64,000 nt of DNA from contig NZ_CP151634.1 of assembly GCF_038397725.1 (NCBI RefSeq), positions 3,348,001-3,412,000 of the forward strand. Direction: 5' to 3'. The position numbers were made by a program, and so were the translations under genes. Positions 13,248 through 27,056 of the stretch are shown piece after piece. Source of the stretch: Microbacterium sp. LWO13-1.2. GTDB lineage: Bacteria; Actinomycetota; Actinomycetes; Actinomycetales; Microbacteriaceae. Under the pieces are notes generated by a model. It ran no database searches, had not been told where the DNA came from, and worked only from the letters and a program-made list of their open reading frames with translations. Within the stretch, counting starts at the first letter, position 1, and the number at the start of each line of letters is the position of its first letter.

Positions 13248-14408
13248 ATGAGCAGCGCTGACGCAGACTCCGGTCGTCCGATCACCGGATCGATCCAGAA
13301 GCCGCGACGCCGGGTGCCTTTCTGGGACAACGCCCGCTATGCCTGCATCGTTCTCGTGGTTCTCGGCCATGCCGTCCAGCGGCTGATCTACGACTCGGAC
13401 ATCGCTTTCGCGTTCTACCTCACGTTGTACGCGTTCCACATGCCGGCATTCGCGATCATCTCCGGATACTTCTCCAAGTCCACGTCGCCGACCAAGACCC
13501 AGATGGCCAGGGTGATCACGGACATCCTCGTGCCCTACCTGATCTTCGAATTGCTCTGGACACTCACGAAGTGGCTCGTCGAGGGGCAGGCCGACCCGAA
13601 CATCACGCGGCCGTCCTGGACGCTGTGGTTCCTGCTCGCGCTGGGGATCTTCCGCCTGGTCCTCCCCTATCTCGCGCTCCTGCGCTGGCCGTTGGTGTGG
13701 ACGGTCGCCATCTCGATCGGCGTCGGGTACCTGCCCAATGTCGACAGCACCTTCTCGCTCTCGCGCACCCTCGGCCTCCTTCCCTTCTTCGCCTTCGGCT
13801 GGTGGCTGCGCGAGCACGACATCGTGGCCAGGATGCGGCTGCTGGATTTCCGACCCTGGTGGGTGCGTGTCGCCGCAGTCGCCGTGCTCGCTGCGACCGG
13901 CTGGGCGGCGTGGACGTGGCTTCCGCTCTGGCAGACGATCGATCTGCGGCACTGGCTCTTCTACGAGGACTCGTATGCGGATCTCGGCGGCGAGCAGTGG
14001 TGGGCCGGCGGCCTGCGCATCGCGCTGATGCTCCTCGCCGTCGTCCTCAGCGCGGCGTTCTTCGCCCTGATTCCGCGCGGAACACACTGGTGGACGCCGT
14101 TCGGGCAGTACACGATGTACGTCTTCCTGCTGCACTCCTTCGTGCTGTACCCGTTCCGCGAAACCGGGATCCTGCGCGACCTCGACCCGACCTGGATCTG
14201 GTTGCCGGTGGTCGCACTCCTCTCGGTGCTGATCGCCCTGGCCCTCGCCACGAGACCAGTACGGTGGCTGTTCCGGCCTCTCGTGGAACCCCGCCCCACA
14301 TGGCTCTTCTCAGATCCCCGGCTCGCCTCGCGCGAGGGACGCAGAAACGACCCGACCGGTTCCCGTCGCCCTGCTCCGCCTCAGTCGAAGAGCTCGGCTC
14401 CGACGTAG
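13248..14408 (+). CDS. Membrane acyltransferase (Acyltransferase_3 family)
   Basis: A 386-residue integral membrane protein with about ten hydrophobic segments. The N-terminal segment FWDNARYACIVLVVLGHAVQ contains the characteristic D-x-A-R and the catalytic-type His of the acyltransferase 3 family, followed by FHMPAFAIISGYF, also typical. Such enzymes acylate cell-surface sugars, peptidoglycan or lipids; similarity is strongest to the fucose-4-O-acetylase-like members. The C-terminal 50 residues are hydrophilic and Pro/Arg-rich. Its end overlaps the convergent efeB end by 28 bp. Confidence 0.87.
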   Translation: MSSADADSGRPITGSIQKPRRRVPFWDNARYACIVLVVLGHAVQRLIYDSDIAFAFYLTLYAFHMPAFAIISGYFSKSTSPTKTQMARVITDILVPYLIFELLWTLTKWLVEGQADPNITRPSWTLWFLLALGIFRLVLPYLALLRWPLVWTVAISIGVGYLPNVDSTFSLSRTLGLLPFFAFGWWLREHDIVARMRLLDFRPWWVRVAAVAVLAATGWAAWTWLPLWQTIDLRHWLFYEDSYADLGGEQWWAGGLRIALMLLAVVLSAAFFALIPRGTHWWTPFGQYTMYVFLLHSFVLYPFRETGILRDLDPTWIWLPVVALLSVLIALALATRPVRWLFRPLVEPRPTWLFSDPRLASREGRRNDPTGSRRPAPPQSKSSAPT

Positions 14409-15694
14409 GATCCCGGTTTCGCGCCGGCTGGGACGGCCCAGATCCCCGAGCCGACGTGTCGGATGTACTCGTTCAGCACGTCTGTCGACAGTCGACGCTG
14501 GAGCGACACGAACTGGGACGGATCCCGCTGGTAGGAGAGGAAGAACAGGCCCGCGTCGAGCCGGCCGAGGTTGTTGTTCCCGTCGACGTAGTTGTAGCCG
14601 CGGCGAAGGATGCGGATGCCGTCGTTCTGTTCAGGATGAGCGAGCCGGACGTGGCTGTTCGCGTCGATCGCCGTTCCGCTGAAGTCGGGCGCGGTGAACT
14701 CGCCTCCGCCGGACAGCGGTGCTCCTGCGCCCTTGTCGCGGCCGATGATGGAGTGCTGCTCGGCGAGTCGAACCCGGTCCCACGTCTCGATCAGCATCGC
14801 GATCTTCCGGGCGACGAGATACGAACCACCGGCCATCCAGGCGGGTTCGTCAGATTCGGCGACCCAGACGTGATCCTCGAGCGCCGCAGCGTCATCCGCG
14901 AGAATGTTCGCCGTGCCGTCCTTGAAGCCGAAGAGATTGCGGGGTGTCGCCTGCGCCGACGTCGTGCGCGAGGTCTTGCCGAAGCCGAGCTGCGACCAGC
15001 GCAACCGCGCCCGCCCGAAGGCGATACGGCTGAGGTTGCGGATCGCGTGCACGGCCACCTGCGGGTCGTCGGCACACGCTTGGATGCAGAGATCGCCGTT
15101 CGACAGCTCGGGGTCGAGGTCGTCACCGAGGAACGGCGGCAGCTTCTCGAGAGTCGCCGGGCGCTGGGCGGCGATGCCGTAGCGATCGCCGTCCGCGTTC
15201 TCGAACAGACCCGGGCCGAAGCCGAAGGTGATGGTCAGCCCGGCCGCGGGCAGCCCCAGCGCCTCGCCGGTATCCTCAGGCGGCTGCTCGGCGGGACCGC
15301 CGACCGCACCGGTGGCGCTGACCTCGAGACCCTGCGTCATCCTCGATGCCGCATAGGTCCAGTCCTGCAGCAGCGACTTGAGGTCGTCGCGGTCGCTTCG
15401 CGGCATCATGTCGAACGCCGCGAAGTGCAGGTGGTCCTGCACCGGCGTGGTGATGCCCGCCTGATGCGCGCCGAAGAAGTCAAACGCGCTCTGCGCATCG
15501 GCGCTCTCCCGCGCGCGTCCGAGGGCGACTCCGCCGGCGAGACCCGCCCCCGTTCCGATCGCAAGACCGGCGACGCCCCCGCCGATCGCGAGGCCGAGCA
15601 GGCCGCGCCTGCTCAGGCCCGAGGGTGCGGATGCCGCGGTGTCGTCGCCGATGGAGGCCGGCACCGCCGCCGCATCCGCTTCTGACTCAGTCAT
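14381..15694 (-). CDS. efeB: Deferrochelatase/DyP-type peroxidase EfeB
   Basis: A 437-residue heme protein, exported by the Tat pathway: SRRGLLG at about residues 29-35 followed by a long hydrophobic stretch. The DyP signature GFKDGTAN is near residue 254 with the distal Asp, and the proximal heme ligand is the first His of NSHVRLAHP near 349. EfeB oxidises ferrous iron or extracts iron from heme outside the membrane for import by EfeU. It is the third gene of the efeUOB operon, 14 nt after efeO. Confidence 0.95.
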   Translation of the reverse strand: MTESEADAAAVPASIGDDTAASAPSGLSRRGLLGLAIGGGVAGLAIGTGAGLAGGVALGRARESADAQSAFDFFGAHQAGITTPVQDHLHFAAFDMMPRSDRDDLKSLLQDWTYAASRMTQGLEVSATGAVGGPAEQPPEDTGEALGLPAAGLTITFGFGPGLFENADGDRYGIAAQRPATLEKLPPFLGDDLDPELSNGDLCIQACADDPQVAVHAIRNLSRIAFGRARLRWSQLGFGKTSRTTSAQATPRNLFGFKDGTANILADDAAALEDHVWVAESDEPAWMAGGSYLVARKIAMLIETWDRVRLAEQHSIIGRDKGAGAPLSGGGEFTAPDFSGTAIDANSHVRLAHPEQNDGIRILRRGYNYVDGNNNLGRLDAGLFFLSYQRDPSQFVSLQRRLSTDVLNEYIRHVGSGIWAVPAGAKPGSYVGAELFD

Positions 15695-15708
15695 GGGGGT
15701 ATCCCGGA

Positions 15709-16941
15709 TCAGGACAGCACCGTGCCGGTCAGCTGCGACAGCGGCTCGGCGAGGGCGTTGATCAGATCGGTGAACTGGCGCTTGTCGGCGTCGGTGAGTT
15801 CGGCGTACCCGACGAAGCCCTCAGCCAGCGAGCCGTGGGCTGCGAGCGCCGCTTCGAGCTGCGCGTAGCCGGCCTCGATCTTCTCGACCAGCGCTGCACC
15901 GTCGTCACCCTGCGCGGCGGCGAAGTCCTGCACCAAGGAGAACGCCATCTTGGACCCCTCGACATTCGCCGCGAAGTCGTAGAGGTCGGTGCCGGACCAC
16001 CAGTCCTCCTCGCCCGAGATCTTTCCCGTCGCGACCTCGTCGAGCAGCGCGATCGCGCCGTTCGAGATTCCGGCGATGCCCTGGTCATCCAGCGCGGTGG
16101 TGAAGTCGTCGGAGTGGACGTAGGAGAAGAGCTCCTGTACGTCGGCGAGAAGCAGATCACCGAACTCGGAGCGCTGCTCCGGGGTCGACGGTGCCCAATC
16201 CTGCCACGCCGGCGTCTCTCCGTCGGCGTTCAGCGCGTCCTGCGCCGGCACCCACAGGTCCTTCTCGATGCGGTGGAAGCCGGTCCAATCGAGCTCCTCC
16301 GCCACCGCGTCCACCTCGCGGTAGTCGATTCGCGGGTCGAGGTCGCCGAGCGCCTCCGCGACGGGCTCGATGCGCTCGTAGAACGCGCGGGTCTGCGGGA
16401 AGAGTGCGCGTGCGGTCTCATCGTCGCCGGCCACGTAGGCGGCGACGAAATCCTCGACCGTGGGCACGAGCTGCCCGACCTGGTCCTTGACGAACGCCGC
16501 GTAGAGGTCGACCGCCTGCTGCTTCAGCTCGGCATCCGGTCCGTCGACGGCGACGCGGTCCCCGGTGACGGTGAATGACGCCTTGCCGACGCCCTCCCCG
16601 ATCATGCCGGGCTTGCAGAGGGTGAAGTACTCCCCCGGCTGCGCGACGACGGTGAGCGTACGGGATGCTGACGGTGCGATGTTCTCGACCTCGCCGACGA
16701 TACGCAGGCCGTCCTCGGCGAGCAGGTAGAACTCCGAGATCTTGCTGCTGTCGTTGGAGACCTCGAAGGTCAGGGTGCCGCTCTTCGCCGTCGCCGCGGA
16801 GACCGCGCACTCACCGTCGGTGGAGGACACCGTGAAGGCTGCTGCGGCGTCGACGTCGCTCTTCGCGACGCATCCGCTCAGTACGAGCGCTCCGGCTCCG
16901 GCGACCGCGAGTGCACCGATGATTCGGCGTGAAGAGATCAT
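15709..16941 (-). CDS. efeO: Iron uptake lipoprotein EfeO
   Basis: A 410-residue lipoprotein with lipobox VLSGC (Cys24). An N-terminal cupredoxin-like domain (about 35-130, with TLCKPGM near its end) is followed by the M75 peptidase-like domain, whose H-x-x-E metal motif appears as GFHRIEKDLW. EfeO binds iron at the cell surface and hands it to the permease. ATG 16941 has AAGGAG four nt upstream and overlaps the efeU stop by ATGA, so translation of efeU and efeO is coupled. Confidence 0.95.
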   Translation of the reverse strand: MISSRRIIGALAVAGAGALVLSGCVAKSDVDAAAAFTVSSTDGECAVSAATAKSGTLTFEVSNDSSKISEFYLLAEDGLRIVGEVENIAPSASRTLTVVAQPGEYFTLCKPGMIGEGVGKASFTVTGDRVAVDGPDAELKQQAVDLYAAFVKDQVGQLVPTVEDFVAAYVAGDDETARALFPQTRAFYERIEPVAEALGDLDPRIDYREVDAVAEELDWTGFHRIEKDLWVPAQDALNADGETPAWQDWAPSTPEQRSEFGDLLLADVQELFSYVHSDDFTTALDDQGIAGISNGAIALLDEVATGKISGEEDWWSGTDLYDFAANVEGSKMAFSLVQDFAAAQGDDGAALVEKIEAGYAQLEAALAAHGSLAEGFVGYAELTDADKRQFTDLINALAEPLSQLTGTVLS

Positions 16942-17885
16942 GCTGCTCCTTGTTGTGAAAGATGAAGGGTCTCGTCCTGGCGTGGTTCCGCCACCGGACG
17001 CGAGCGGGATGGACGCCGCCCGCGGAGACCGCGAACGTAGAAGAATCCGACGATGCCGACGTAGAGCGCCCAGGCGATGACCTGCAGCCAGGTCATCGCG
17101 GGCATGAACCCGACCGTCGCCTGCAGGATCGCAGCCCACGCGCTGTCCGGCGCGATGGTCGAAGCGACATCGAAAGACCAGCCGAACGGGATCGCCGACC
17201 ACCCGACGGCGACCGCTCCCGTCGTCGGATCCAGCGGCGCGATGGCCGTGAAGGGACCGGGAAGTGCGCCAGCCTCCTGCAGATCCATCACGGCGTAGGC
17301 GAGGACTCCCGCGGCGACGATGACCAGGAATCCGCCGGTCCAGGAGAAGAACCGGCGCAGGTCCAGTCGCACGGCGCCGCGCGTGATCAACCAACCGGCG
17401 ATGACCGCGGTGGCGAGGCCGAGCAGCGCTCCGAGCAATGCTGTCGGCGCGTCTCCGAAGGACTGCACCATGGACCACAGCAGCAGCGTCGTCTCGATGC
17501 CCTCCCGCGCGACCGAGACGAAGCCGATCGCAATGAGAGCCCACAGGCCGCCCCGGGTGAGGGCGCGGTCGATGCCGCCCTCGAGCGTCGCCTTCATGGT
17601 GCGGCCGGCGCGCTGCATCCAGAAGATCATCCAGGTGACCATGCCGACGGCGAGCAGCGAGAGACCTCCGCCGACGAGCTCCTGGGCCTCGAACGTCAGT
17701 GCGTAGTCGCCGAAGGTGAGCACGGCACCGATCCCGAGCGCCAGGGCGACGGCGAGGCCGATGCCGATCCACAACCGCGGGAGCGCATCGGCGCGGCCGA
17801 GTCGACGGAGGTAGGCGATGAGGATGCCGACGACGAGCGCGGCTTCCAAGCCTTCGCGAAGGCCGATCAGGAATGTGGCGAGCAC
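16938..17885 (-). CDS. efeU: Ferrous/ferric iron permease EfeU (FTR1 family)
   Basis: A 315-residue membrane protein with seven hydrophobic segments and both iron-binding R-E-x-x-E motifs of the FTR1 family: REGLEAALVV at residues 10-19 and REGIETTLL in the fourth segment. It begins directly at the first membrane helix with GTG 17885; no clear ribosome site precedes it, so the mRNA may have a very short leader. It is the first gene of the operon efeU-efeO-efeB, a DtxR-like palindrome lying 28 nt upstream. Confidence 0.95.
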   Translation of the reverse strand: MLATFLIGLREGLEAALVVGILIAYLRRLGRADALPRLWIGIGLAVALALGIGAVLTFGDYALTFEAQELVGGGLSLLAVGMVTWMIFWMQRAGRTMKATLEGGIDRALTRGGLWALIAIGFVSVAREGIETTLLLWSMVQSFGDAPTALLGALLGLATAVIAGWLITRGAVRLDLRRFFSWTGGFLVIVAAGVLAYAVMDLQEAGALPGPFTAIAPLDPTTGAVAVGWSAIPFGWSFDVASTIAPDSAWAAILQATVGFMPAMTWLQVIAWALYVGIVGFFYVRGLRGRRPSRSRPVAEPRQDETLHLSQQGAA

Positions 17886-18011: not shown

Positions 18012-19016
18012 ATGTCTGAACTCTCGCTCCCCATCCTCGACCTGTCCCAGCTCGACGAAGGCCCGGAAGCGGCCGCCCGCTTCCGTCAGGATCTGCGGAC
18101 AGCGACCCATGACGTCGGCTTCTTCTATCTCACGGGTACCGGCATCTCCCCCGAGCTGGAGACACGACTGCACCGCGCAGCGCTCGACTTCTTCGCCCTC
18201 CCGGAATCCGAGAAGCTCGCGATCGAGAACGTGAAGAGCCCCCACTTCCGCGGCTACACCCGTATCGGCGGCGAGCGCACGCAGGGGAAGGTCGATTGGC
18301 GCGAACAGATCGACATCGGCTCAGAGCGCGAGCCCGTCAGCGACGGACCCGCGTTCAACCGGCTGATCGGGCCGAACCTCTGGCCGGCGGCGCAGCCCGA
18401 GCTGCGCGAGATCGTCGACGAATGGCACGAGACTCTCTCCGAAGTCGCCCGCAAACTTCTCCGAGCCTGGGCACTCGCTCTGGGAGCTGCGGAGTCGTAC
18501 TTCGACGAGCACTTCGGCGAACCCTCCACCCTCATCAAGATCGTGCGCTACCCCGGAACCGAGGCGCCCGAACCGCGGCAGGGCGTCGGCGCGCACAAGG
18601 ACTCGGGCGTGCTGACCCTGCTCTGGGTCGAGCCGGGCAAGGGCGGGCTCCAGGTCGAGCGCGATGGCACCTGGGTGGATGCGCCGCCCGTTCCCGGCGC
18701 GTTCGTGGTGAACATCGGGGAGCTGCTCGAATACGCCACCGGCGGCTATCTCAAGGCGACGAACCATCGGGTCGTCTCGCCCCAGGCACCGGATGAGCGC
18801 ATCTCGATCCCGTTCTTCTTCAACCCGGCGCTGGATCAGCGTCTCCCACTCATCGAGCTGCCGGCCGACCTCGCCGCGGACGCGAACGGGGTCACCCAGG
18901 ATCCGAGCAACCCCATCCACTCGCTCTACGGCGAGAACGCCCTGAAGTCGCGCCTGCGTGCGCATCCGGACGTTGCGGCCATCCACCACGCGGATCTCGT
19001 CGGCGTGGTGTCCTGA
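18012..19016 (+). CDS. 2-oxoglutarate/Fe(II)-dependent dioxygenase (isopenicillin N synthase family)
   Basis: A 334-residue oxygenase. The N-terminal DIOX_N segment (LPILDLSQLDE, HDVGFFYLTGTGI) is followed by the catalytic double-stranded beta-helix with iron ligands His195 and Asp197 (GAHKDSGVLTLLW), distal His252 (ATNHRVVSP), and Arg263 in RISIPFFFNP for 2-oxoglutarate. Members hydroxylate or desaturate small molecules; substrate unknown. It is divergent from efeUOB with 126 nt between the starts, so an iron enzyme faces an iron-uptake operon, and the DtxR-like box may affect both. Confidence 0.92.
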   Translation: MSELSLPILDLSQLDEGPEAAARFRQDLRTATHDVGFFYLTGTGISPELETRLHRAALDFFALPESEKLAIENVKSPHFRGYTRIGGERTQGKVDWREQIDIGSEREPVSDGPAFNRLIGPNLWPAAQPELREIVDEWHETLSEVARKLLRAWALALGAAESYFDEHFGEPSTLIKIVRYPGTEAPEPRQGVGAHKDSGVLTLLWVEPGKGGLQVERDGTWVDAPPVPGAFVVNIGELLEYATGGYLKATNHRVVSPQAPDERISIPFFFNPALDQRLPLIELPADLAADANGVTQDPSNPIHSLYGENALKSRLRAHPDVAAIHHADLVGVVS

Positions 19017-19100: not shown

Positions 19101-20126
19101 GTGGATGCATCCCGTCCGCGGCGACCGACGCTGGCCGATGTCGCCGCTCTCGCAGGAACTTCGACCGCCGTCGTCAGCTATGTCGTCAACGACGGTCCCC
19201 GCGCGGTCTCCGCCGTGACGAAGGAGCGCGTCGAGCAGGCCATCGCCGAGCTCGGCTATCGACGCAATGCCCTGGCCGGTGCGCTCAGCGCCGGACGCGC
19301 CGACCTCATCGGGCTGCTCGTTCCGGACTCGGCCAACGCGTTCTTCAGCGAGCTCGCCCGGCATCTGGAGGGTGCGGCTCGACAGCGAGGGCTGCTCACA
19401 CTCCTCGGAAACACCGGCTACAGCGTCAGCGCGGAGCGCGACTATCTCCACACCTTCTCCGACCTGCGCCCGCGCGGCATCGTGATCGCGACCATCTCCG
19501 ACTCCCCCGAGCTCGCCATCGACTGCCCCCGTGTGTACGTGCACTCGGCCCCGGCGGAGACGGCGAGCCCGAGTGTCGTCATCGACGATGAAGATTCCGC
19601 GGCCGTCGCGGTGAGGCATCTCATCGACCACGGGCACACAGCGGTGCATTGCATCACAGGTCCGACCGATTTCGGGCCGGCCGGACGCCGAGAAGCAGGC
19701 TGGCGTCGAGCGATGCGTGCGGCGGGGTATGACACGACCGGTCTCGTTCACCCGATGCCGTTCGACCGTCTCGGCGCCGAAGAGGCGACGACCGCCCTCT
19801 TCAACAGCCCTTCGCCGCCGAGCGCGATCTTCGCCGCCACGGACGAGCAGGCGATCGGTGTACTGCGGGCCGCGGCGCTGTGCGGGCTGCGAGTCCCGGA
19901 AGACGTCGCGATCATCGGCTTCGACGGCATCAGGGAAGCACTGGCCGGAAGCACTCGCCTCACCACGGTCGCCGTGCCGCTCGCAGAGCTCGCGGCCGTC
20001 GTCGTCGACGCGCTCGATGGCGGCGCGCCGGCGGCCCATGTGCTGCACGCGACGCTGTCGATCGGCGAGACCTGCGGGTCGCATGCGGACGACGGATCTC
20101 CGATCGCGCGCCCGACGTCAGGCTGA
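19101..20126 (+). CDS. LacI-family transcriptional regulator
   Basis: A 341-residue repressor-type protein with GTG start at 19101. The N-terminal helix-turn-helix and hinge read TLADVAALAGTSTAVVSYVVN (about 10-30) and VTKERVEQAIAELGYRRNALA; the C-terminal part is the periplasmic-binding-protein-like effector domain (LIGLLVPDSANAFF, IFAATDEQAIGVL, VAIIGFDGI). Its 3' end overlaps the convergent amidohydrolase gene by 9 bp. It is inferred to control the six-gene nucleoside-type operon 20118-26953 through the LacI-like site at 27038. Confidence 0.93.
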   Translation: MDASRPRRPTLADVAALAGTSTAVVSYVVNDGPRAVSAVTKERVEQAIAELGYRRNALAGALSAGRADLIGLLVPDSANAFFSELARHLEGAARQRGLLTLLGNTGYSVSAERDYLHTFSDLRPRGIVIATISDSPELAIDCPRVYVHSAPAETASPSVVIDDEDSAAVAVRHLIDHGHTAVHCITGPTDFGPAGRREAGWRRAMRAAGYDTTGLVHPMPFDRLGAEEATTALFNSPSPPSAIFAATDEQAIGVLRAAALCGLRVPEDVAIIGFDGIREALAGSTRLTTVAVPLAELAAVVVDALDGGAPAAHVLHATLSIGETCGSHADDGSPIARPTSG

Positions 20127-21377
20127 GGCGCGGAAGACCTCTCGCCCACCGGCGACGGTGAGGACGCAGCTTCCCGCGCCGTCGGCGACGAGTGCCTCGT
20201 GCACCTCGGTCCCCTCGACGGCGATGTCGAACAGCGCCAGGTCAGCGGGACCGCCGACTGACAGCCCTCCGTAGCCGTCGTCCGCGAGACCCATGGCCTT
20301 GGCGCCGCCCAGCGTCGCTGCGCGCACCAGTCGCTCCGCGAGGTCGGAATCCGTGTATCCCTGCTTCCTGGCGATCGCTGCGAGTTCTCTCACGTCTTCC
20401 ATGAGATCGAGCGATGGAGAGGATGCGAGCGAATCCGTCCCGACGGAGATCTCATGCCCCTCCGCCAGGTAAGCGGCGACGGGCGCCTCGGCGAGACCGA
20501 TGACCCGGTTCGATCTCGGGCAGAGGGCGACCTGCGTTCCCCTGGCCAGAAGCAGGTCGCGTTCCGCCCGGTCCAGGTAGATCGCATGGGCGACGTGGGT
20601 GGTCTCGCTCAGCAGTCCGATGGCATCCGCATATTCGCCGGTCGTGTGACCGACGCCGCCCTTGCGGACCAGTTCGAACTCGTCACGGAGGTCGCCGTAA
20701 GCACCGAGGACAGTCCTGTCGCCGTGACGATAGAAGTCGGCCTCGGCGAAGGACTCGCCGAGATGGGAGTGCACGCGGAGACCGCGATCGGCCGCGATGC
20801 GCACCAGATCGGTGACCACGGATCCGTCCAGACTGTATGCCGCGTGCGGAGAGATCCCGCGACGGGCATCTGTCGGCTCCTCGAGCCACGCCAGGAAATC
20901 GGCTCGGCCCCCCTCCCGCCAGATGCGATCGAACTGGCCGATCGCCTCGAGGTACTCGATGCCGCCGACGCCGCATTCCGGCAGTGCCCCGCGCGCCGGG
21001 GTGTCGGTGACGATCTCGGCGAACACGGTCGTGCCGGACGCGATCGCCAGACGTGCGCCTTCCCGTGCGGCCTCGTGCCACGACGCGGGCTCCACCGCGT
21101 CGTAGAGTTCGCCGAACACGAACGACCACTCCTCGAAGCTCGTGTAGCTCCCGGCGCCGATCTCTCGGAATCCGGTGTACTGCAGATGCGTGTGCGCGTT
21201 GACGAGACCGGGCACGATCACGCCGCGCTGACGCGGAGCATCCGTCCACCGGCGCGGAAGGTCGGCCTGCGGACCGATCCAGGCGATGCGCCCGTCCTCG
21301 ACGACGACGGCGCCGTCACGTATCGGAGCAGCGACGACCGGCACCACCCAGTCCGCCGCGTAGACCTCACTTGTCAC
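20118..21377 (-). CDS. Amidohydrolase, nucleoside-deaminase type (MtaD/DadD/aminofutalosine deaminase-like)
   Basis: A 419-residue metal-dependent hydrolase of the cytosine/adenosine-deaminase-like (ATZ/TRZ) group. Metal and catalytic residues: His62 and His64 in VNAHTHL, H203-S204-H205 in HSHLGES, a His in HAIYLD, and Asp315 in VGTDSLASSPSLDL. The last motif resembles enzymes that deaminate 5'-modified adenosines (5'-methylthioadenosine/SAH deaminase, 5'-deoxyadenosine deaminase, aminodeoxyfutalosine deaminase). It is the final gene of the operon; GTG 21377 overlaps the permease stop by 11 nt. With the SAHH-like genes it suggests deamination and cleavage of an imported nucleoside (inference). 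Confidence 0.85.
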   Translation of the reverse strand: MTSEVYAADWVVPVVAAPIRDGAVVVEDGRIAWIGPQADLPRRWTDAPRQRGVIVPGLVNAHTHLQYTGFREIGAGSYTSFEEWSFVFGELYDAVEPASWHEAAREGARLAIASGTTVFAEIVTDTPARGALPECGVGGIEYLEAIGQFDRIWREGGRADFLAWLEEPTDARRGISPHAAYSLDGSVVTDLVRIAADRGLRVHSHLGESFAEADFYRHGDRTVLGAYGDLRDEFELVRKGGVGHTTGEYADAIGLLSETTHVAHAIYLDRAERDLLLARGTQVALCPRSNRVIGLAEAPVAAYLAEGHEISVGTDSLASSPSLDLMEDVRELAAIARKQGYTDSDLAERLVRAATLGGAKAMGLADDGYGGLSVGGPADLALFDIAVEGTEVHEALVADGAGSCVLTVAGGREVFRASA

Positions 21378-22194
21378 TGACTCCTCCGAAGCCCTTCGCC
21401 AGCGCCTTCTGCGCGACGGCGAAGACGACCAGTGTCGGCAGGAGCGCTACGAGCGCCGCAGCGGCCTGCCCCTGCAGATTGACGTCTTCCCGAGTGGACA
21501 GCGAGGTGGCTGCGAGCGGGATCGGGTACACCGAAGGATCTCCCTGAAGAAGCGTGGCGGATACGAGCAGGTCGCCGAACGTCCAGACGAACACGAGCGC
21601 CACCACCGACGCGATGGCCGGAAGCGCCAACGGCACCGCGATGGAGCGGAAGATGCGTCCGAGTCCGGCTCCGTCGAGCGTCGCAGCCTCGAACAGCTCC
21701 GGTGTGAGCACCTGACGGAAGAACGTGTGCACGAGGTAGAGCGCGAACGGCAGACTGGCGACGCCGTTGATGAGCCCGGCGACGACCAGGTTGTCGGTGG
21801 CCCCGCCACCCGCGAGGATCACGAACACCGGGATCAGCCAGGCGATCATCGGAATCGCGTAGGCGGAGACCAGCAGCCAGCGCAGGCCGTCGGCGACGCG
21901 ACCCTGATGCACGCGGAACCAGAACGCGCCGGCGAGGGCGGTCGTCGTACAGACGGTGCACGCGACCAGACACACCAGCAGCGAGTTCAGGAGCGCCCTG
22001 CCGAGATCGGCTTCGAACCATGCCTCGATGATGTTGTCGAGGGTGAACGCCTTCGGGATGCCGCCAGGGGCGGCGATGTAGTCCTCGCGCGTGCGCAGGG
22101 CAGTGCCGATCAGGAAAACGAACGGCACGATGAACGGAATCGTGATGAGCGCGGCGATGGTCGTCCTGACGCGGCGCTGGGTACGGATGCTCAT
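21367..22194 (-). CDS. ABC transporter permease, CUT1 type (MalG-like)
   Basis: A 275-residue membrane protein with six hydrophobic segments. The EAA loop that contacts the ATPase reads ELFEAATLDGAGLGRIFRSIAVPLALP, typical of carbohydrate (CUT1) transporters. ATG 22194 overlaps the other permease by ATGA. No ATPase gene is in the operon, so it probably uses a shared MsiK-type ATPase encoded elsewhere, as in other actinobacteria. Confidence 0.92.
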   Translation of the reverse strand: MSIRTQRRVRTTIAALITIPFIVPFVFLIGTALRTREDYIAAPGGIPKAFTLDNIIEAWFEADLGRALLNSLLVCLVACTVCTTTALAGAFWFRVHQGRVADGLRWLLVSAYAIPMIAWLIPVFVILAGGGATDNLVVAGLINGVASLPFALYLVHTFFRQVLTPELFEAATLDGAGLGRIFRSIAVPLALPAIASVVALVFVWTFGDLLVSATLLQGDPSVYPIPLAATSLSTREDVNLQGQAAAALVALLPTLVVFAVAQKALAKGFGGVSDK

Positions 22195-23156
22195 GCCGTC
22201 GCCTTCTGCCCGATGACGCGCCGGATCAACTTCGGCACGAGGATGCCGAGCACCGGTACGAGCACGATCATCAGCACCAGCACGACGGATTCCGCCGCTG
22301 CGGAGCCGAAGAAGCCGAAGCGCATGAACTTCTGGTAGATCGCGAAGTCGAGCGTCGTGCTGGCGAGGCCCGGTCCGCCTCCCGTGAGCACGTAGATCCA
22401 GGAGAACATGAACAGGAAGATCGAGATCACCTGGAACATGGTCCACAGCACCACGGTCGGTCGGATGGCAGGAGCTGCGATGTGCCAGAACTCCTGCCAG
22501 AACCCGGCGCCGTCCAGGCGCGAGGCCTCGAAGATCTCCTGCGGCACGGCGCCGAGCGCGGCGGAGAAGATGAGCACTCCCGTTCCGAACCCTGCCCACA
22601 GTACGAGAACGATGATGACGGGCTTGACGAGGTCCTGGTCCGTGAGCCACGGGAGCGCCAGAGCGTGCCAGCCGATATCGGTGAGGAAGCTGTCGAGCGG
22701 CCCTTTGGTGGACAGCAGCGATCGGAAGACCAGACCGACGATCGCCGGAGACATCACCGCGGGCAGGAAGTAGATCGATCGCCACAGACCGGGTCGGGCG
22801 ACGTGTTCACGCAGCAGGTAGGCCACGACGAGCGGGGCGATCACCCACAGCGGAAGTCCGAGGAGATAGAACAGCTGATTGCCGACCACCTGCCAGAACT
22901 CGGGATCGGCGAAGAGCTCCGTGTAATTGCCGACGCCGATGAACGTCGACACTCCTCCCGGCTGCCAGTCGTAGAAGGACCGAAAGGCGAGGTAGATCAG
23001 CGGGGCGAAGAACACCCCGACCTCGAGCGCGAGCACCGGCAGCAGGAACAGCAGGTTTCCGCTGAGAATCGGGGTGCCTCGCCGCGCACGGGCGCGCGTC
23101 GATCGGGAAGGGCGCGTGATGGCGCCCTCCCCGATCTGCGAAGCGGGGTTCGTCAT
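22191..23156 (-). CDS. ABC transporter permease, CUT1 type (MalF-like)
   Basis: A 321-residue membrane protein with six hydrophobic segments after a basic N-terminal 35 residues. The EAA loop is EIFEASRLDGAGFWQEFWHI and the usual GGPGLAST motif follows. ATG 23156 overlaps the stop of the binding-protein gene by ATGA. Together with the MalG-like subunit it forms the translocation channel. Confidence 0.92.
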   Translation of the reverse strand: MTNPASQIGEGAITRPSRSTRARARRGTPILSGNLLFLLPVLALEVGVFFAPLIYLAFRSFYDWQPGGVSTFIGVGNYTELFADPEFWQVVGNQLFYLLGLPLWVIAPLVVAYLLREHVARPGLWRSIYFLPAVMSPAIVGLVFRSLLSTKGPLDSFLTDIGWHALALPWLTDQDLVKPVIIVLVLWAGFGTGVLIFSAALGAVPQEIFEASRLDGAGFWQEFWHIAAPAIRPTVVLWTMFQVISIFLFMFSWIYVLTGGGPGLASTTLDFAIYQKFMRFGFFGSAAAESVVLVLMIVLVPVLGILVPKLIRRVIGQKATA

Positions 23157-24457
23157 TTGCTCTTGTCGTAGGCGGACTGCGCCTGCTCGGTGAATTCGTC
23201 GATCGTCAGGTCGCCGCCGATCAGCGGGGCAGCGTTGCGCTCGTAGACGGCGAGCACGCTCAGCGGGAACGATGCGAAGCCGGTGTGATTCTCGTCGGCC
23301 TGCATCAGGGGCAGGTAGGCCTTCTGGATGTCGGTGGTGCCCTCGACCTCGAGGTTCTTCACGTTCGGCGGCACGCCGACGGCGTTCCACAGGATCTCCT
23401 GCGCTTCGGCGCTGGCGAGGAAGTTCACGAAGGCTGCGGATGCTTCAGGGCTCTTCGTCCATTTGGTGACGGCCCAGCCTGCCTCGGCGCCCGCGTCGAT
23501 GAGCTCCTCGTACTGCGAGTCGGGCACCTGCGGAAGGCGCATCACCGTCGTGCTCGGAACCGTCTCGCTCGCCGTGCTCGCGGTGGAGAGCGACCCCATC
23601 GCGAACATCGCAGCGGTACCCGCGTAGTACTGGTTGAACGCGTCGTCGTACATGTTCACGCCGAGGTTCTCGTCGCCGCCGAAGCATCCGGCGTCGTTCA
23701 TGTCGAGGATGTACTGCGTGCCCTTGGTGAAGAGCTCGTCGTCGACCGGAACATCGCCGGCGACCCAGCTGTCCAGCGTCTCCTTGTCCATGAGCTGGCT
23801 GGAGATCATGTACATGAACGTCTCGAACATGTAGCCGTCCTTCCAGCCGGAAGCGAACGGCTGGATGCCTTTGGCGTGCAACTGCTCACACGTCGAGAGC
23901 AAGCCGTCCCAGTCGGCGATCGACGTGGCCGGGTCCAGGCCCGCCTGTGCGAAGAGCTCCTGATTCACCAGCAGCGCATAGCCGTAGGTGCCGGTGGGGA
24001 GGATGTAGAGGTTGCCGTCCTCCGAGTGGTTCTCCGGGAGGAACTTCAGGTTCTCCTCGACCTCCGGAAGCATCGCATCCTGCAGCGGGTAGAGGCCGTT
24101 GCGATAGCTGTAGGCCTGCGCTCCGCCGTACATCGTGACGACATCGGCACCCTTGCGCGCGACGGTGGCGTTTCGCACCTGATCGAAGTATGTCGGGTAC
24201 GGCATGGTGGTCAGTTCGACGGTCACCTGCGGGTACTTGTCCTGGAAGGCGGCGATCACCGCCTCGTAGGCCTCGGCTCCGCCGTCGTAATTGTCAGGGA
24301 GGAAGGACCACACGGTGATCGTGGTCTCCCCCTCGGGCACGTTCGCCGGGTCGAGCGCTTCGGCGCTGGGCGCTGCGCCCTCGGAGCATGCGGCGAGCGC
24401 GAGAGCGCCGGCCGCCAGCAAGCCGGCCGCTGCAATGCGGGTCCTGTTCTTGATCAC
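23153..24457 (-). CDS. ABC transporter substrate-binding lipoprotein, CUT1 type
   Basis: A 434-residue extracellular binding protein of the SBP_bac_1 family. Signal peptide with lipobox LALAAC (Cys24 counted from GTG 24457), an AGAGGA ribosome site six nt upstream. The mature protein begins after an acidic linker with TITVWSFLPDNYDGG, and has the two-lobed features of carbohydrate-type binding proteins (VVTMYGGAQAYSYRNGLYPL, AMFAMGSLS). Its setting with SAHH-like and deaminase genes suggests a nucleoside-like rather than simple sugar ligand (inference; CUT-type proteins with nucleoside ligands are less usual). Confidence 0.9.
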   Translation of the reverse strand: MIKNRTRIAAAGLLAAGALALAACSEGAAPSAEALDPANVPEGETTITVWSFLPDNYDGGAEAYEAVIAAFQDKYPQVTVELTTMPYPTYFDQVRNATVARKGADVVTMYGGAQAYSYRNGLYPLQDAMLPEVEENLKFLPENHSEDGNLYILPTGTYGYALLVNQELFAQAGLDPATSIADWDGLLSTCEQLHAKGIQPFASGWKDGYMFETFMYMISSQLMDKETLDSWVAGDVPVDDELFTKGTQYILDMNDAGCFGGDENLGVNMYDDAFNQYYAGTAAMFAMGSLSTASTASETVPSTTVMRLPQVPDSQYEELIDAGAEAGWAVTKWTKSPEASAAFVNFLASAEAQEILWNAVGVPPNVKNLEVEGTTDIQKAYLPLMQADENHTGFASFPLSVLAVYERNAAPLIGGDLTIDEFTEQAQSAYDKSK

Positions 24458-24473
24458 GGGAAATCCTCTCGGT

Positions 24474-25700
24474 TCACCAGCTGCGCATCGCGGCAGCGAG
24501 GTCATCTGTCATCGGTTCGAGGGATGCTCCCTCGTGAGCCAGGCGGGCGATGGCGACCGCCTGTTCGAGTGCCTCGGGAAGCGGGTGGACACCCACGCCC
24601 CAGTCCTTCGCCGTCGTCGCGATGAGTTCGGCCGCCAGAGCCTGCAACGAAAGCGAGAGGTCCATCACCTCGATCGGGTTTCCCTCACCGTCCGTGCAGT
24701 TCAGGCAGTCGCCCTCGCTGATGACGAGGACCGTCGTGCCGTCGGCACGGGTGTACTGGGTGACACCGGCGCGAACGGAATCCGCTGTCCCGAGAGCATC
24801 CAGTTCCGGCATCGGAAGCTCGAACGCGCCACCACCTGCCGTGCAGAGGATGACGCCGTCCGGCATCTGGTCCACATGCGCAGCGGTGACGGCTCCGGCG
24901 ATCCCGGTCGCAGCGAAGACCACCTCCGCGGTCGGCGCTGCGTCGGCAAGGCTCATCACCCTGTACCCGTCGTGCAGTGCCTGCAACGCCTTGATGGGGT
25001 CGAGTTCGGTGACGACGACGCGCGCGCCGAGCGCAGCCGCGTGAAGGGCTACACCCTTGCCCACCCAGCCGTATCCGACGACGACGACCGTGCGTCCGGC
25101 GATCTGCAGGTTCGTCACGTCGAGCAGGGTCATCACGCACGACTGGCCGGTGCCGTACACGTTGTCGAAGAGGTACTTGGTCTTGGCATCGTTGACCGCG
25201 ACCACGGGGATGCGCAGCGCGCCGTCGTCATGCATCGCCCGCAACGGGCGCACACCGCTCGTGGTCTCCTCCGCAGCCCCCAGGAGGCTGCCGACGAGGG
25301 CGGGGAACTCGCGGTGCGCGAGACGGATGATCGATGCGCCGTCGTCGAGGATGATGTCGGGCGCGGTACCGAGGTACTCCCTGGCGAGTTCCAGGTCTCG
25401 CTCATCGCCGACGCCTTCCTCCGCGAACACGGCGAGCCCTTCTGCGGCGAGGGCATCTGCGGTCTCCTGGTCTGTTGACCGACCCGAGCAGTACACGCTG
25501 ACCTCCGCCCCGGCATCGCGCAGAGCGAGCGCGAGGTTCGCGGTCTTCGGCTCGAGTACCAGCCCTACTCCGATGCGGTGTCCTTTGAGTGCTCCAGACT
25601 CGGCGAGGCGTACCGAGATCCCGCGGAGCACCGGCATCCCTCTGCCTGCCCAGGCGATCCGTCCGGCTCCGGCACGCGCCCGCTCTTCGAACGTGCTCAT
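24474..25700 (-). CDS. S-adenosylhomocysteine hydrolase-like protein B (catalytic His residues lost)
   Basis: A 408-residue SAHH-family protein. The Rossmann NAD motif is G209-Y-G211-W-V-G214, and the substrate/NAD lysine segment is intact (K175, D179, N180 in KTKYLFDNVYGTGQS), as are D119/D120 and AEETTSG. However, three histidines conserved in SAHHs are replaced: the site of human His55 is Val48, that of His301 is Gly290/Gly291 (AGGGAFE), and that of His353 is Asn341 (GNPIEVM). The C-terminal Lys-Tyr extension of bacterial and eukaryotic SAHHs is missing, as in the short archaeal type. ATG 25700 overlaps paralog A by ATGA, so both are made together; it may be a divergent enzyme or a regulatory partner of A. 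Confidence 0.85.
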   Translation of the reverse strand: MSTFEERARAGAGRIAWAGRGMPVLRGISVRLAESGALKGHRIGVGLVLEPKTANLALALRDAGAEVSVYCSGRSTDQETADALAAEGLAVFAEEGVGDERDLELAREYLGTAPDIILDDGASIIRLAHREFPALVGSLLGAAEETTSGVRPLRAMHDDGALRIPVVAVNDAKTKYLFDNVYGTGQSCVMTLLDVTNLQIAGRTVVVVGYGWVGKGVALHAAALGARVVVTELDPIKALQALHDGYRVMSLADAAPTAEVVFAATGIAGAVTAAHVDQMPDGVILCTAGGGAFELPMPELDALGTADSVRAGVTQYTRADGTTVLVISEGDCLNCTDGEGNPIEVMDLSLSLQALAAELIATTAKDWGVGVHPLPEALEQAVAIARLAHEGASLEPMTDDLAAAMRSW

Positions 25701-26953
25701 GGTGCGATCCCTTCGCTCAACCAGTCGGCCGCGTCGTCTTCCTGCTCCGCCCGCATCGGGTCGAGCTCCACGCCCAGGCTCGCGAGCTTCGCAGCTGCGA
25801 TCGCGTCGTCGAGCTCGGCGGGAATGATGTGCACGCCCGGCTCGAGACCAGCGGTCACCAGGTGATGTGCGCCGATACCCTGAACCGCGAACGTGAGGTC
25901 CATGATCTCGACCGGATGCCCGCTCCCGCCGGCGATGTTCACGAGCGCTCCCCCGGACAGGACGTGAAGATCGCGATCGCCGATTCGATATGTGTCGATC
26001 TGCTCTCGAGGCGAGGAGATGGCGGACGCCGCGGCGGCGAGTGCATCGACGTCGACTTCGAGATCGTGGTGACCGGCGTTGGCCAGGACGACGTCGTGCC
26101 GGAGGAACGGCAGATCGCGCTCGCCGATCGCTCGCATCCCTCCGGTGCCGGTGACCACGAAGGTCGCGTCCGGCAGCACATCCCGGGCGGCGCCGACGGC
26201 GTGGCCGTCCATGAACGCTTCCAGGGCGCGCACCGGGTCGACTTCGATCACGCTGGTGCGAGCTCCCATCGCCTTGGCGTACTGCGCGATACCGCGGCCG
26301 ACGTACCCGTAGCCCACCACGCAGAATCCGGCTCCGGCGATCTGACGGTTCGTCAGGCGAAGCATGGCCTGCACCGTGGTCTGCCCGGTGCCGAACTTGT
26401 TGTCGAAGAGGTGCTTGCAGCGTGCGTCGTTCGCCGTGAGCGCCGGGAACGGCAACCGCCCGGCTTCGTGCATGCGGTGCAGACGCGCCGTCCCCGTTGT
26501 CGTCTCCTCCGAGACTCCGCGGAGTCCTGCGAACAGCTCGGGGCGGTACTGACTCATGCGCATCGTCAGCTCGGCGCCGTCGTCGATGATGTACTCCGGT
26601 GCGTGGTCGGCTGCGATCAACAGCTCTCGCTCCCAGGAGTCGTAGTCGCCATCAGGTTCAGCGACGACGGTGAGTCCGCGTTCGCGGAGGGCCTCGACGA
26701 CATCACCTCGGGTGGTGCGCGGATTGCTGCCGGCGACGATCACCTCGGCTCCGGCATCCGCGAGCACGGTGGCGAGGAAAGCTGTCTTGGCTTCGAGATG
26801 CACCACGACGGCGATCCGCTTGCCTTCCAACGATCCGTCGGAGATGCGCCGACGGACGAACCCGTCCAGCACCGGCGAGTGGCGGCGCACCCATTCGATC
26901 TGCGCCCGTCCGACGTTCGGGTCTCCCGAGCGCGAATCCTGTGTGACATCCAT
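25697..26953 (-). CDS. S-adenosylhomocysteine hydrolase-like protein A (archaeal-type, catalytic residues kept)
   Basis: A 418-residue SAHH-family protein, short like the archaeal and Thermotoga forms (about 410-430) rather than the 480-490 of typical actinobacterial SAHHs. His52 (HLEAKTA), the DDGAELT Asp pair, SEETTTG, K180/D184/N185 (CKHLFDNKFGTGQTT), H295 (AGHHDLEVD) and H346 (GHPVEIM) keep the catalytic set. The family segment S-T-Q-D that contacts the substrate is changed to T-T-R-G (SNPRTTRGDV), which suggests another substrate than S-adenosylhomocysteine. NAD motif GYGYVGRG. It is the first gene of the six-gene operon. Archaeal relatives include S-inosylhomocysteine hydrolase, which acts after deamination, in line with the deaminase in this operon (inference). 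Confidence 0.88.
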   Translation of the reverse strand: MDVTQDSRSGDPNVGRAQIEWVRRHSPVLDGFVRRRISDGSLEGKRIAVVVHLEAKTAFLATVLADAGAEVIVAGSNPRTTRGDVVEALRERGLTVVAEPDGDYDSWERELLIAADHAPEYIIDDGAELTMRMSQYRPELFAGLRGVSEETTTGTARLHRMHEAGRLPFPALTANDARCKHLFDNKFGTGQTTVQAMLRLTNRQIAGAGFCVVGYGYVGRGIAQYAKAMGARTSVIEVDPVRALEAFMDGHAVGAARDVLPDATFVVTGTGGMRAIGERDLPFLRHDVVLANAGHHDLEVDVDALAAAASAISSPREQIDTYRIGDRDLHVLSGGALVNIAGGSGHPVEIMDLTFAVQGIGAHHLVTAGLEPGVHIIPAELDDAIAAAKLASLGVELDPMRAEQEDDAADWLSEGIAP

Positions 26954-27037
26954 CGAGACTCCGTACAGAGTTGTGTCCTGCGTGATTGCATCCTGCGCGC
27001 GGATCGACGGGTGTCCGATCCGCGTGCTTCCGCCTAT

Positions 27038-27056
27038 CTAAGCGGTTAGAACCGCT
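27038..27056 (-). promoter_or_regulatory. LacI-type operator and overlapping palindrome upstream of the SAHH operon
   Basis: CTAAGCGGTTAG (27038-27049) fits the LacI-family pattern with an AA-N-CG-N-TT core. A second inverted repeat, AGCGGTT-AG-AACCGCT (27041-27056), overlaps it. It lies 85 nt before the SAHH-like A start and 88 nt from the end of the upstream regulator gene, in the only space for the operon promoter. The convergent LacI protein at 19101 is the likely binder. Confidence 0.5.

Follow-up and report, generated by a model that had tools for sequence, protein, structure and literature searches.

A predicted nucleoside uptake and breakdown operon in Microbacterium sp. LWO13-1.2 with two unlike proteins of the S-adenosylhomocysteine hydrolase family

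We analysed a 64,000-nucleotide stretch of the Microbacterium sp. LWO13-1.2 genome (NZ_CP151634.1, positions 3,348,001 to 3,412,000; hereafter the window), in which a packed operon of six minus-strand genes (20118-26953) encodes two members of the S-adenosylhomocysteine (SAH) hydrolase (SAHH) family, here called A and B, a CUT1-type ATP-binding cassette (ABC) importer and an amidohydrolase, with a convergent gene for a LacI-family regulator (Table 1). SAHH is a textbook single-gene housekeeping enzyme. On balance, and with modest confidence, we read the operon as an inducible, horizontally spreading module for the uptake and breakdown of a 5'-modified adenine nucleoside, in which A and B would attack the inosyl product as a pair.

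In the scheme that we favour, LacI would repress the operon through a site at 27037, the importer (CUT1 here; of polar-amino-acid ABC, energy-coupling factor (ECF) or nucleoside ABC type elsewhere) would take the compound up, and the amidohydrolase would convert its adenine to hypoxanthine. A and B, which share the ExK hypoxanthine-binding motif, would then act on the inosyl product by 3'-oxidation dependent on nicotinamide adenine dinucleotide (NAD), probably working as one complex. A could break the C5'-S bond in the classical way. B would oxidise the substrate and deprotonate C4', and since it lacks the acid that protonates the leaving sulfur, its leaving group may be one that departs unprotonated, or B may catalyse some other, later step. 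On circumstantial support, the natural substrate is most plausibly SAH or a close relative: the enzymes are of the type that acts on SAH and S-inosylhomocysteine (SIH), the amidohydrolase belongs to a fitting superfamily, and two related loci carry a nucleoside-type importer.

Residue patterns of A, B and the amidohydrolase

A contains both Pfam domains of the SAHH family above cut-off (PF05221, AdoHcyase, 112.6 bits; PF00670, AdoHcyase_NAD, 114.2 bits) and also passes the cut-offs of two NCBIfam models (NF004010, 560 bits; NF004005, 454 bits). Judged by its catalytic residue set it is a complete short SAHH: with human residue numbers assigned to A and B by alignment and recall, the equivalents of H55, E57, K59, H301 and H353 are present in all 23 aligned A proteins, and the remaining catalytic residues are invariant. 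The gate histidine is thus kept throughout, followed by His in 20 of these proteins and Ser in 3, never by Phe, as compared with the His-Phe molecular gate given as a GHF motif in a passage of PMC13406329. The sequence HLEAK in A is an HxExK motif, shared by all 23 aligned proteins and by the 15 full-length A genes among the 80 loci described below, and the adenine motif HxTxE/Q is absent. A passage of PMC10978960 reports that HxExK enzymes favour SIH and HxTxE/Q enzymes favour SAH, so that A carries the sequence mark of a SIH-preferring SAHH. With this motif in A, deamination followed by hydrolysis, the order suggested in the initial annotation of this DNA, is the natural reading.

The two SAHH-like enzymes of the initial annotation are not a pair of similar hydrolases. 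In B the AdoHcyase and AdoHcyase_NAD domains both score above the Pfam cut-off, and an AlphaFold model of a relative in which a NAD domain is fused to B (locus L083; pLDDT 86.7 and predicted template modelling score (pTM) 0.84, owed mostly to the B part, with approximately residues 50-140 weak) matches the Thermotoga maritima SAHH structure 3x2f with an E value of 1.5e-34, indicating an SAHH fold. Across 49 aligned B proteins E57, K59, D130, D131, E156, N181, K186, D190 and N191 are kept without exception, as is the ExK motif, while the general-acid histidine is absent, the H55 position being occupied by Val (43), Phe (3), Thr (2) or Met (1). The position of the gate histidine, H301, is Gly and that of H353 is Asn in all 49, and B too lacks HxTxE/Q. 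According to a passage of PMC13406329, the H55 equivalent donates a proton to the leaving sulfur and H301 is the molecular-gate histidine. By its residues, then, B is an unusual SAHH subfamily with intact redox and C4' residues and an altered 5' side and H353 position. It is unlikely to be a dead protein, because the redox and C4' residues are invariant.

This pattern admits other chemistries for B. If the substrate of B had a cationic or self-leaving 5' group, such as the sulfonium of S-adenosylmethionine (SAM) or of its inosyl counterpart, while A dealt with the thioether of SAH or SIH, the loss of both histidines near C5' (H55 and H301) beside a 3'/4' machinery kept in every protein would be explained, in keeping with the proton-donor role of the H55 equivalent (passage of PMC13406329). 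The reasoning is purely chemical, however, no gene in the loci names SAM, and no SAM riboswitch scored above the gathering threshold in 14 sources; we think this division of labour rather unlikely. Alternatively, B might catalyse another reaction of the 3'-keto intermediate: it could free the base, as would a nucleosidase dependent on NAD, or act as an epimerase at C4' or C2'. Retention of the redox residues without the C5' acid and gate residues is compatible with this, and the uniform change of H353 to Asn is consistent with a changed base site, but the C4' base D131 is invariant, which fits C4' chemistry, and the cited passages on SAHH contain no precedent. We regard such a reaction as quite unlikely.

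In the amidohydrolase, H62, H64, H203, H205, E208, H264 and D315, which we take to be the metal ligands and catalytic residues, are conserved in 95% or more of 51 relatives. Superfamily and these residues are what it shares with methylthioadenosine (MTA)/SAH, 5'-deoxyadenosine and aminofutalosine deaminases. It differs from them in falling below the cut-off of every NCBIfam model among the best 25 of 32 matches (8-oxoguanine deaminase, the best, 127 against 532; aminofutalosine deaminase, 106 against 320; SAH/MTA deaminase, 66 against 779) and in sitting with A or B relatives in most B loci.

Loci of B relatives and their exchangeable importers

A search for the gene set in other genomes, as proposed in the initial annotation, found that it recurs, also in other phyla, and it is this recurrence that makes the set more than a chance assembly. 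We surveyed the best 80 of 184 contig loci found with B. Their counts come from tblastn and hidden Markov model runs, and gene labels from a simple open reading frame (ORF) caller that missed some genes; the labels BmpA/NupPQ, IclR, cytidine deaminase and thymidine phosphorylase were assigned by eye and BLAST. An amidohydrolase gene is found close to B, in the same orientation, in 73 of the 80 loci, and three of the other seven (L076, L082 and L084) end at a contig edge. An importer is found near B in 75 loci and belongs to one of four unrelated classes: polar-amino-acid ABC in 47, ECF in 20, CUT1 in 6 and a BmpA/NupPQ-type nucleoside ABC in 2, with none recognised in 5. On a tree of B proteins the importer state, counting 'none' as a state, changes 10 times. 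The frequency of the amidohydrolase together with four unrelated importer classes points to a compound that is imported and deaminated, and the simplest common denominator of the loci would be a compound brought in by any importer at hand and then deaminated. The unit of uptake, amidohydrolase and SAHH genes anticipated at the outset thus holds up, and in two relatives a nucleoside-type importer occupies the same place.

The sugar-type ABC transporter that was part of the same proposal stands as to its class, with one SBP_bac_1 protein and two BPD_transp_1 permeases in the window operon by Pfam, but since any of three other importers can take its place, it gives little indication of a sugar ligand. 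No ATPase gene for the importer is present among the ORFs of the operon; a shared MsiK-type ATPase is a familiar ATPase source for CUT1 importers, and an ATPase-like gene lies downstream of the module in L070, L072 and L077. The best PDB match of the CUT1 binding protein is a chitin-oligosaccharide binder (E value 2e-17). That its nearest solved relatives bind sugars would suit an operon that simply takes up a sugar, with the SAHH-like and amidohydrolase genes as passengers of no related function. We consider this very improbable, because the grouping of B and the amidohydrolase with A or its remnant persists where three other importer classes replace CUT1.

An amino acid as ligand of the polar-ABC binding proteins was also considered, with mixed outcome. 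These proteins keep the Arg that presumably forms the carboxylate site of amino-acid binding proteins, but in three Acidimicrobial members (L088, L095 and L103) the acidic residue that we assume to form the alpha-amino site is absent, which weakens the case for an amino acid there.

Two further features of such loci may be recorded. A Cupin_5 gene (DUF985, PF06172; for example L044, 12091-12645) is close to B in 49 of the 80 loci; it recurs where the module has a polar-ABC importer and in some modules of the ECF type, but in none of the six CUT1 loci. Separately, a different family of short SAHH-like proteins occurs in L062 (8674-12435) and L057 (8725-12579); it has the HxExK motif and, by eye, the changes D131 to Asn, D190 to Glu and H353 to Asn. 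Its gene adjoins those for an IclR-type regulator, an adenosine deaminase and phosphotransferase system EIIA/EIIB components (several labels assigned by eye), and L062 also encodes nucleoside-type permeases, a cytidine deaminase and a thymidine phosphorylase (by eye or BLAST). Judged by gene content, this is a second, different pairing of SAHH and deaminase.

The SAHH-like partner upstream of B

A, or a SAHH-like remnant, lies directly upstream of B in 79 of the 80 loci, and the exception, L132, starts at a contig end. The partner is a full A in 15, a degenerate A in 1, a separate NAD-domain frame in 17 and a NAD-domain extension in frame with B in 46, where fusion is defined by a single open frame and not by the start codon. 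The degenerate A (L078, 368 amino acids) has lost H55, E57, K59, E156, K186, D190, N191, H301 and H353. Measured in 17 loci that have A or degenerate A, the distance from the A stop to the start of the B domain ranges from -19 to +84 nt. Profiles of the remnants find no match elsewhere among 13,036 segments of the 80 loci, although the training set included 8 of the 63 remnant loci, and the training pieces L039 and L040 share contigs with the test loci L105 and L093. Profiles of A and B themselves give two weak matches apart from B, near 19.5 kb in L089 and in L092.

Natural A-B fusion proteins of 797-864 amino acids also exist, at least 16 of them among the best 120 of 7455 matches, in which an A module scoring 681-739 bits precedes a B module scoring 440-689 bits; in P0359 the B module has a shifted tail. 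His55 of the A module is replaced by Gln in P0273, P0280, P0284 and P0359 and is unplaceable in P0290. An alignment of the fusions with single A and B rows was not used, its invariant columns all lying in the A half, to which the B rows had apparently been aligned. The fusions and the remnants make A and B look like a single unit in evolution.

To place these states we used a tree of B proteins built by a quick method (LG+G4) and rooted with A, which comprised 64 of the 80 loci, the window B, a second B of the same genome and 7 A rows, without L132 and 15 near-duplicates. Full A is basal, and its loss is one change; the degenerate A and the separate NAD domains, together with the fused L083, fall in ECF-type lineages, and the fused domain marks the polar-ABC lineages. 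In many actinobacteria A seems, from these sequences, to have been reduced to a helper NAD domain that either stands alone or is fused to B, which resembles a prozyme: a catalytically dead paralog is retained, as seen in the L078 protein without catalytic residues and in the partners that consist of the NAD domain only.

The origin of the remnant is harder to read from its sequence. In profile-profile comparisons the separate remnant pieces match A at 97.8% (E 1.3e-12) and B at 97.6%, the fused pieces A at 95.0% and B at 96.4%, and a subset of the fused pieces A at 89.3% and B at 94.7%. Against single sequences the values for separate and fused pieces are 95.5 and 84.9% for the window A, 96.0 and 94.6% for the window B, 81.6 and 35.0% for canonical SAHH, 57.5 and 3.9% for ketol-acid reductoisomerase, and at most 0.5% for unrelated proteins. 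The remnant therefore fits B at least as well as it fits A, which counts against the favoured history in that sequence alone cannot assign it to A; because of this, its probable descent from A is argued from its position and from the degenerate intermediate L078.

A competing reading, which we think unlikely, is that A and B are homomeric enzymes independent of each other, which take successive steps or have separate substrates and form no complex, so that linkage and fusion reflect only co-regulation. The redox residues are kept in both proteins, as this would require, and an AlphaFold2 model of an A-B fusion, made from a shallow alignment of 15 sequences, lends no support to packing of A on B or to a complex (pTM 0.39). 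Independence does not, on the other hand, account for NAD domains that persist before B without a substrate-binding domain, separately in 17 loci and in frame in 46, or for the A-B fusions. A more far-reaching version of the preferred reading, which we put forward only tentatively and do not expect to hold in full, would make B the founder of a catalytic subfamily new to the SAHH fold. B would oxidise the 3'-OH of a deaminated nucleoside and perform acid-free 5' elimination, for example of a sulfonium, in an obligate hetero-complex with an SAHH sister stripped stepwise from full enzyme to fused NAD-domain subunit. With the exchangeable importer and the deaminase it would form an undescribed route by which bacteria scavenge SAH- or SAM-like nucleosides from outside the cell, and would explain where SIH goes in mesophilic bacteria.

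Regulation, genome context and relation to known systems

The initial annotation described six coupled minus-strand genes with overlaps of 4 to 11 bp and a 16-nt gap, together with a convergent LacI gene and a LacI-type site. Coordinates and Pfam bear this out, and the site, placed at 27037-27050, is common to relatives. All frames are open; 4-bp overlaps join A to B, the binding protein to permease 1 and permease 1 to permease 2, permease 2 overlaps the amidohydrolase gene by 11 bp, and the gap lies between B and the binding protein. The LacI gene is tail to tail with the amidohydrolase gene, with a 9-bp overlap. Pfam confirms the family of every operon protein and of LacI.

Table 1. Features of the operon and its regulator (positions in the window)
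Feature	Position	Strand	Basis
A, short SAHH-family protein, 418 amino acids	25697-26953	-	Pfam, NCBIfam, residue columns
B, variant SAHH-family protein, VxExK, 408 amino acids	24474-25700	-	Pfam, NCBIfam, 49-protein columns
CUT1-type lipoprotein binding protein (SBP_bac_1)	23153-24457	-	Pfam; GTG start inferred from sequence
ABC permease 1 (BPD_transp_1)	22191-23156	-	Pfam
ABC permease 2 (BPD_transp_1)	21367-22194	-	Pfam
Amidohydrolase, 419 amino acids (Amidohydro_1)	20118-21377	-	Pfam; NCBIfam neighbours; residue conservation
LacI-family regulator, convergent with operon	19101-20126	+	Pfam PF00356/PF13377
Predicted LacI-type operator TCTAAGCGGTTAGA	27037-27050	.	83 nt ahead of A start

The predicted operator, TCTAAGCGGTTAGA, is the sole match in the window at up to 2 mismatches and the sole match in the 4,008,377-base genome at up to 1. 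Corresponding operators are TCTAAGCGCTTAGA or its equivalent in L071, L077 and L081, TCTAAGCGCTAAGA in L074 and L076, and GCTAAGCGCTTAGA in L070 and L072. Those of L070, L071, L072, L074, L076 and L077 precede A, and that of the ECF-type L081 precedes an A remnant. A LacI gene is found near B in 12 of the 80 loci, including all six of the CUT1 type, and gene and near-identical operator are kept together in actinobacterial, Rhizobiales and Pseudomonadales loci. The operator has to be judged by position and relatives, because finding one match by chance is not unusual: of 100 shuffled versions of the window, 11 also contained at least one, and a backwards control pattern likewise occurred at one place in the genome, so that uniqueness alone is not significant. 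It is convincing through its place and its conservation in related loci.

These operator controls tell against the inducible module that we favour, and so do several other observations. By the NCBIfam model NF004005, which gives B a score of 410 against a cut-off of 275, B is an ordinary adenosylhomocysteinase. Four loci (L073, L075, L102 and L113) carry A and B without an amidohydrolase in the 7.5 kb searched, though sequence extends there. The 80 loci are not independent of one another, many being from Curtobacterium and Microbacterium, and L070 and L072 are near-identical. Finally, no SAM or SAH riboswitch exceeded its Rfam gathering score in the 14 sources; riboswitch control by SAM or SAH was rejected, the only hit being an unrelated flavin mononucleotide (FMN) riboswitch in the window (RF00050, 9789-9932, plus strand, 112.5 bits).

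As to other neighbours, a 2-oxoglutarate-Fe(II) oxygenase gene (18012-19016, plus strand; DIOX_N and 2OG-FeII_Oxy) adjoins the LacI gene and was dropped as a candidate member of the module, there being no labelled relative in the 80 loci. Genes for a DyP peroxidase, an imelysin-type protein and an FTR1 permease (14381-17885, minus strand; Pfam) form an iron uptake cluster that we take to be EfeUOB-like.

The genome, a single contig, encodes a separate canonical SAHH of 481 amino acids with the motif HMTVQ (HxTxQ), in answer to the question raised earlier of whether an enzyme of about 480 amino acids exists elsewhere in it. It also holds a second module (L036, 8510-13074; G000:C1, about 1105.5-1110.1 kb) with a NAD-remnant-B fusion of 480 amino acids, an amidohydrolase and, by eye, a binding protein and permease of polar-amino-acid type. 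At E values up to 1e-80, A is found in 1 of 295 genomes of the genus, that of the window, and for this reason horizontal acquisition of the operon is most likely; close A relatives named Microbacterium do occur in the protein database, among the best 120 of 2975 matches. Composition was uninformative as a sign of transfer, the GC content being 66.7% in the operon and 67.0% in the window.

We also compared the 30 B-bearing genomes, namely the present one and 29 with strong B matches in a search of 299 genomes (G268 was left out). Canonical SAHH is kept in 20, including that of the window, and has no full-length match in 10; five of the latter (G047, G062, G082, G197 and G253) also show no MTA/SAH nucleosidase above cut-off. 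In some species the module may therefore serve in SAH removal as well. Taken further, these 10 genomes could mean that the module mainly disposes of intracellular SAH in place of SAHH or MTA/SAH nucleosidase, its transporters exchanging by-products. The 20 genomes that retain canonical SAHH, the linked LacI gene and operator, which fit inducible catabolic use, and the near-absence of A from the genus, where it is evidently dispensable, make this distinctly unlikely.

A search of CC-licensed PMC text found no account of the gene set, the B subfamily, the decaying partner or the ligand, in line with the earlier statement that no described system with this gene set was known. One near likeness is the archaeal and Thermotoga SIH pathway of DadD and an HxExK hydrolase, described in a passage of PMC10978960, which shares a deaminase-type partner and an HxExK short SAHH (A), with ExK in B too; that pathway serves intracellular SAM regeneration, whereas ours combines uptake genes with a second, variant SAHH (B) that is linked to A, and the genome has a canonical SAHH elsewhere. 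That paper leaves the fate of SIH in Streptomyces open. Canonical SAHH (AHCY) shares with A and B the family, the fold of a B relative and the NAD and redox residues, but B lacks the acid and gate histidines and H353, and neither protein has HxTxE/Q. The trypanosome AdoMet decarboxylase prozyme, in a passage of PMC5201418, is likewise a paralog that lost catalysis and was kept with the active enzyme; the present case differs in being bacterial and operon-encoded, with the series of decay from full enzyme to fused domain visible in sequence.

The loci thus present a branch of the SAHH family tied to import and deamination, a subfamily without the leaving-group acid and a partner that is apparently caught at several stages of decay. 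Named relatives of A and B are, with few exceptions, called 'adenosylhomocysteinase' (among the best 120 of 2975, 1223 and 7455 matches), and if our reading is right it would be a warning against automatic annotation of such proteins as the methyl-cycle enzyme. It would also add a nucleoside-scavenging pathway in actinobacteria and other phyla, offer a candidate fate for SIH in bacteria, and provide a tractable system for the transition from an enzyme to a non-catalytic partner.

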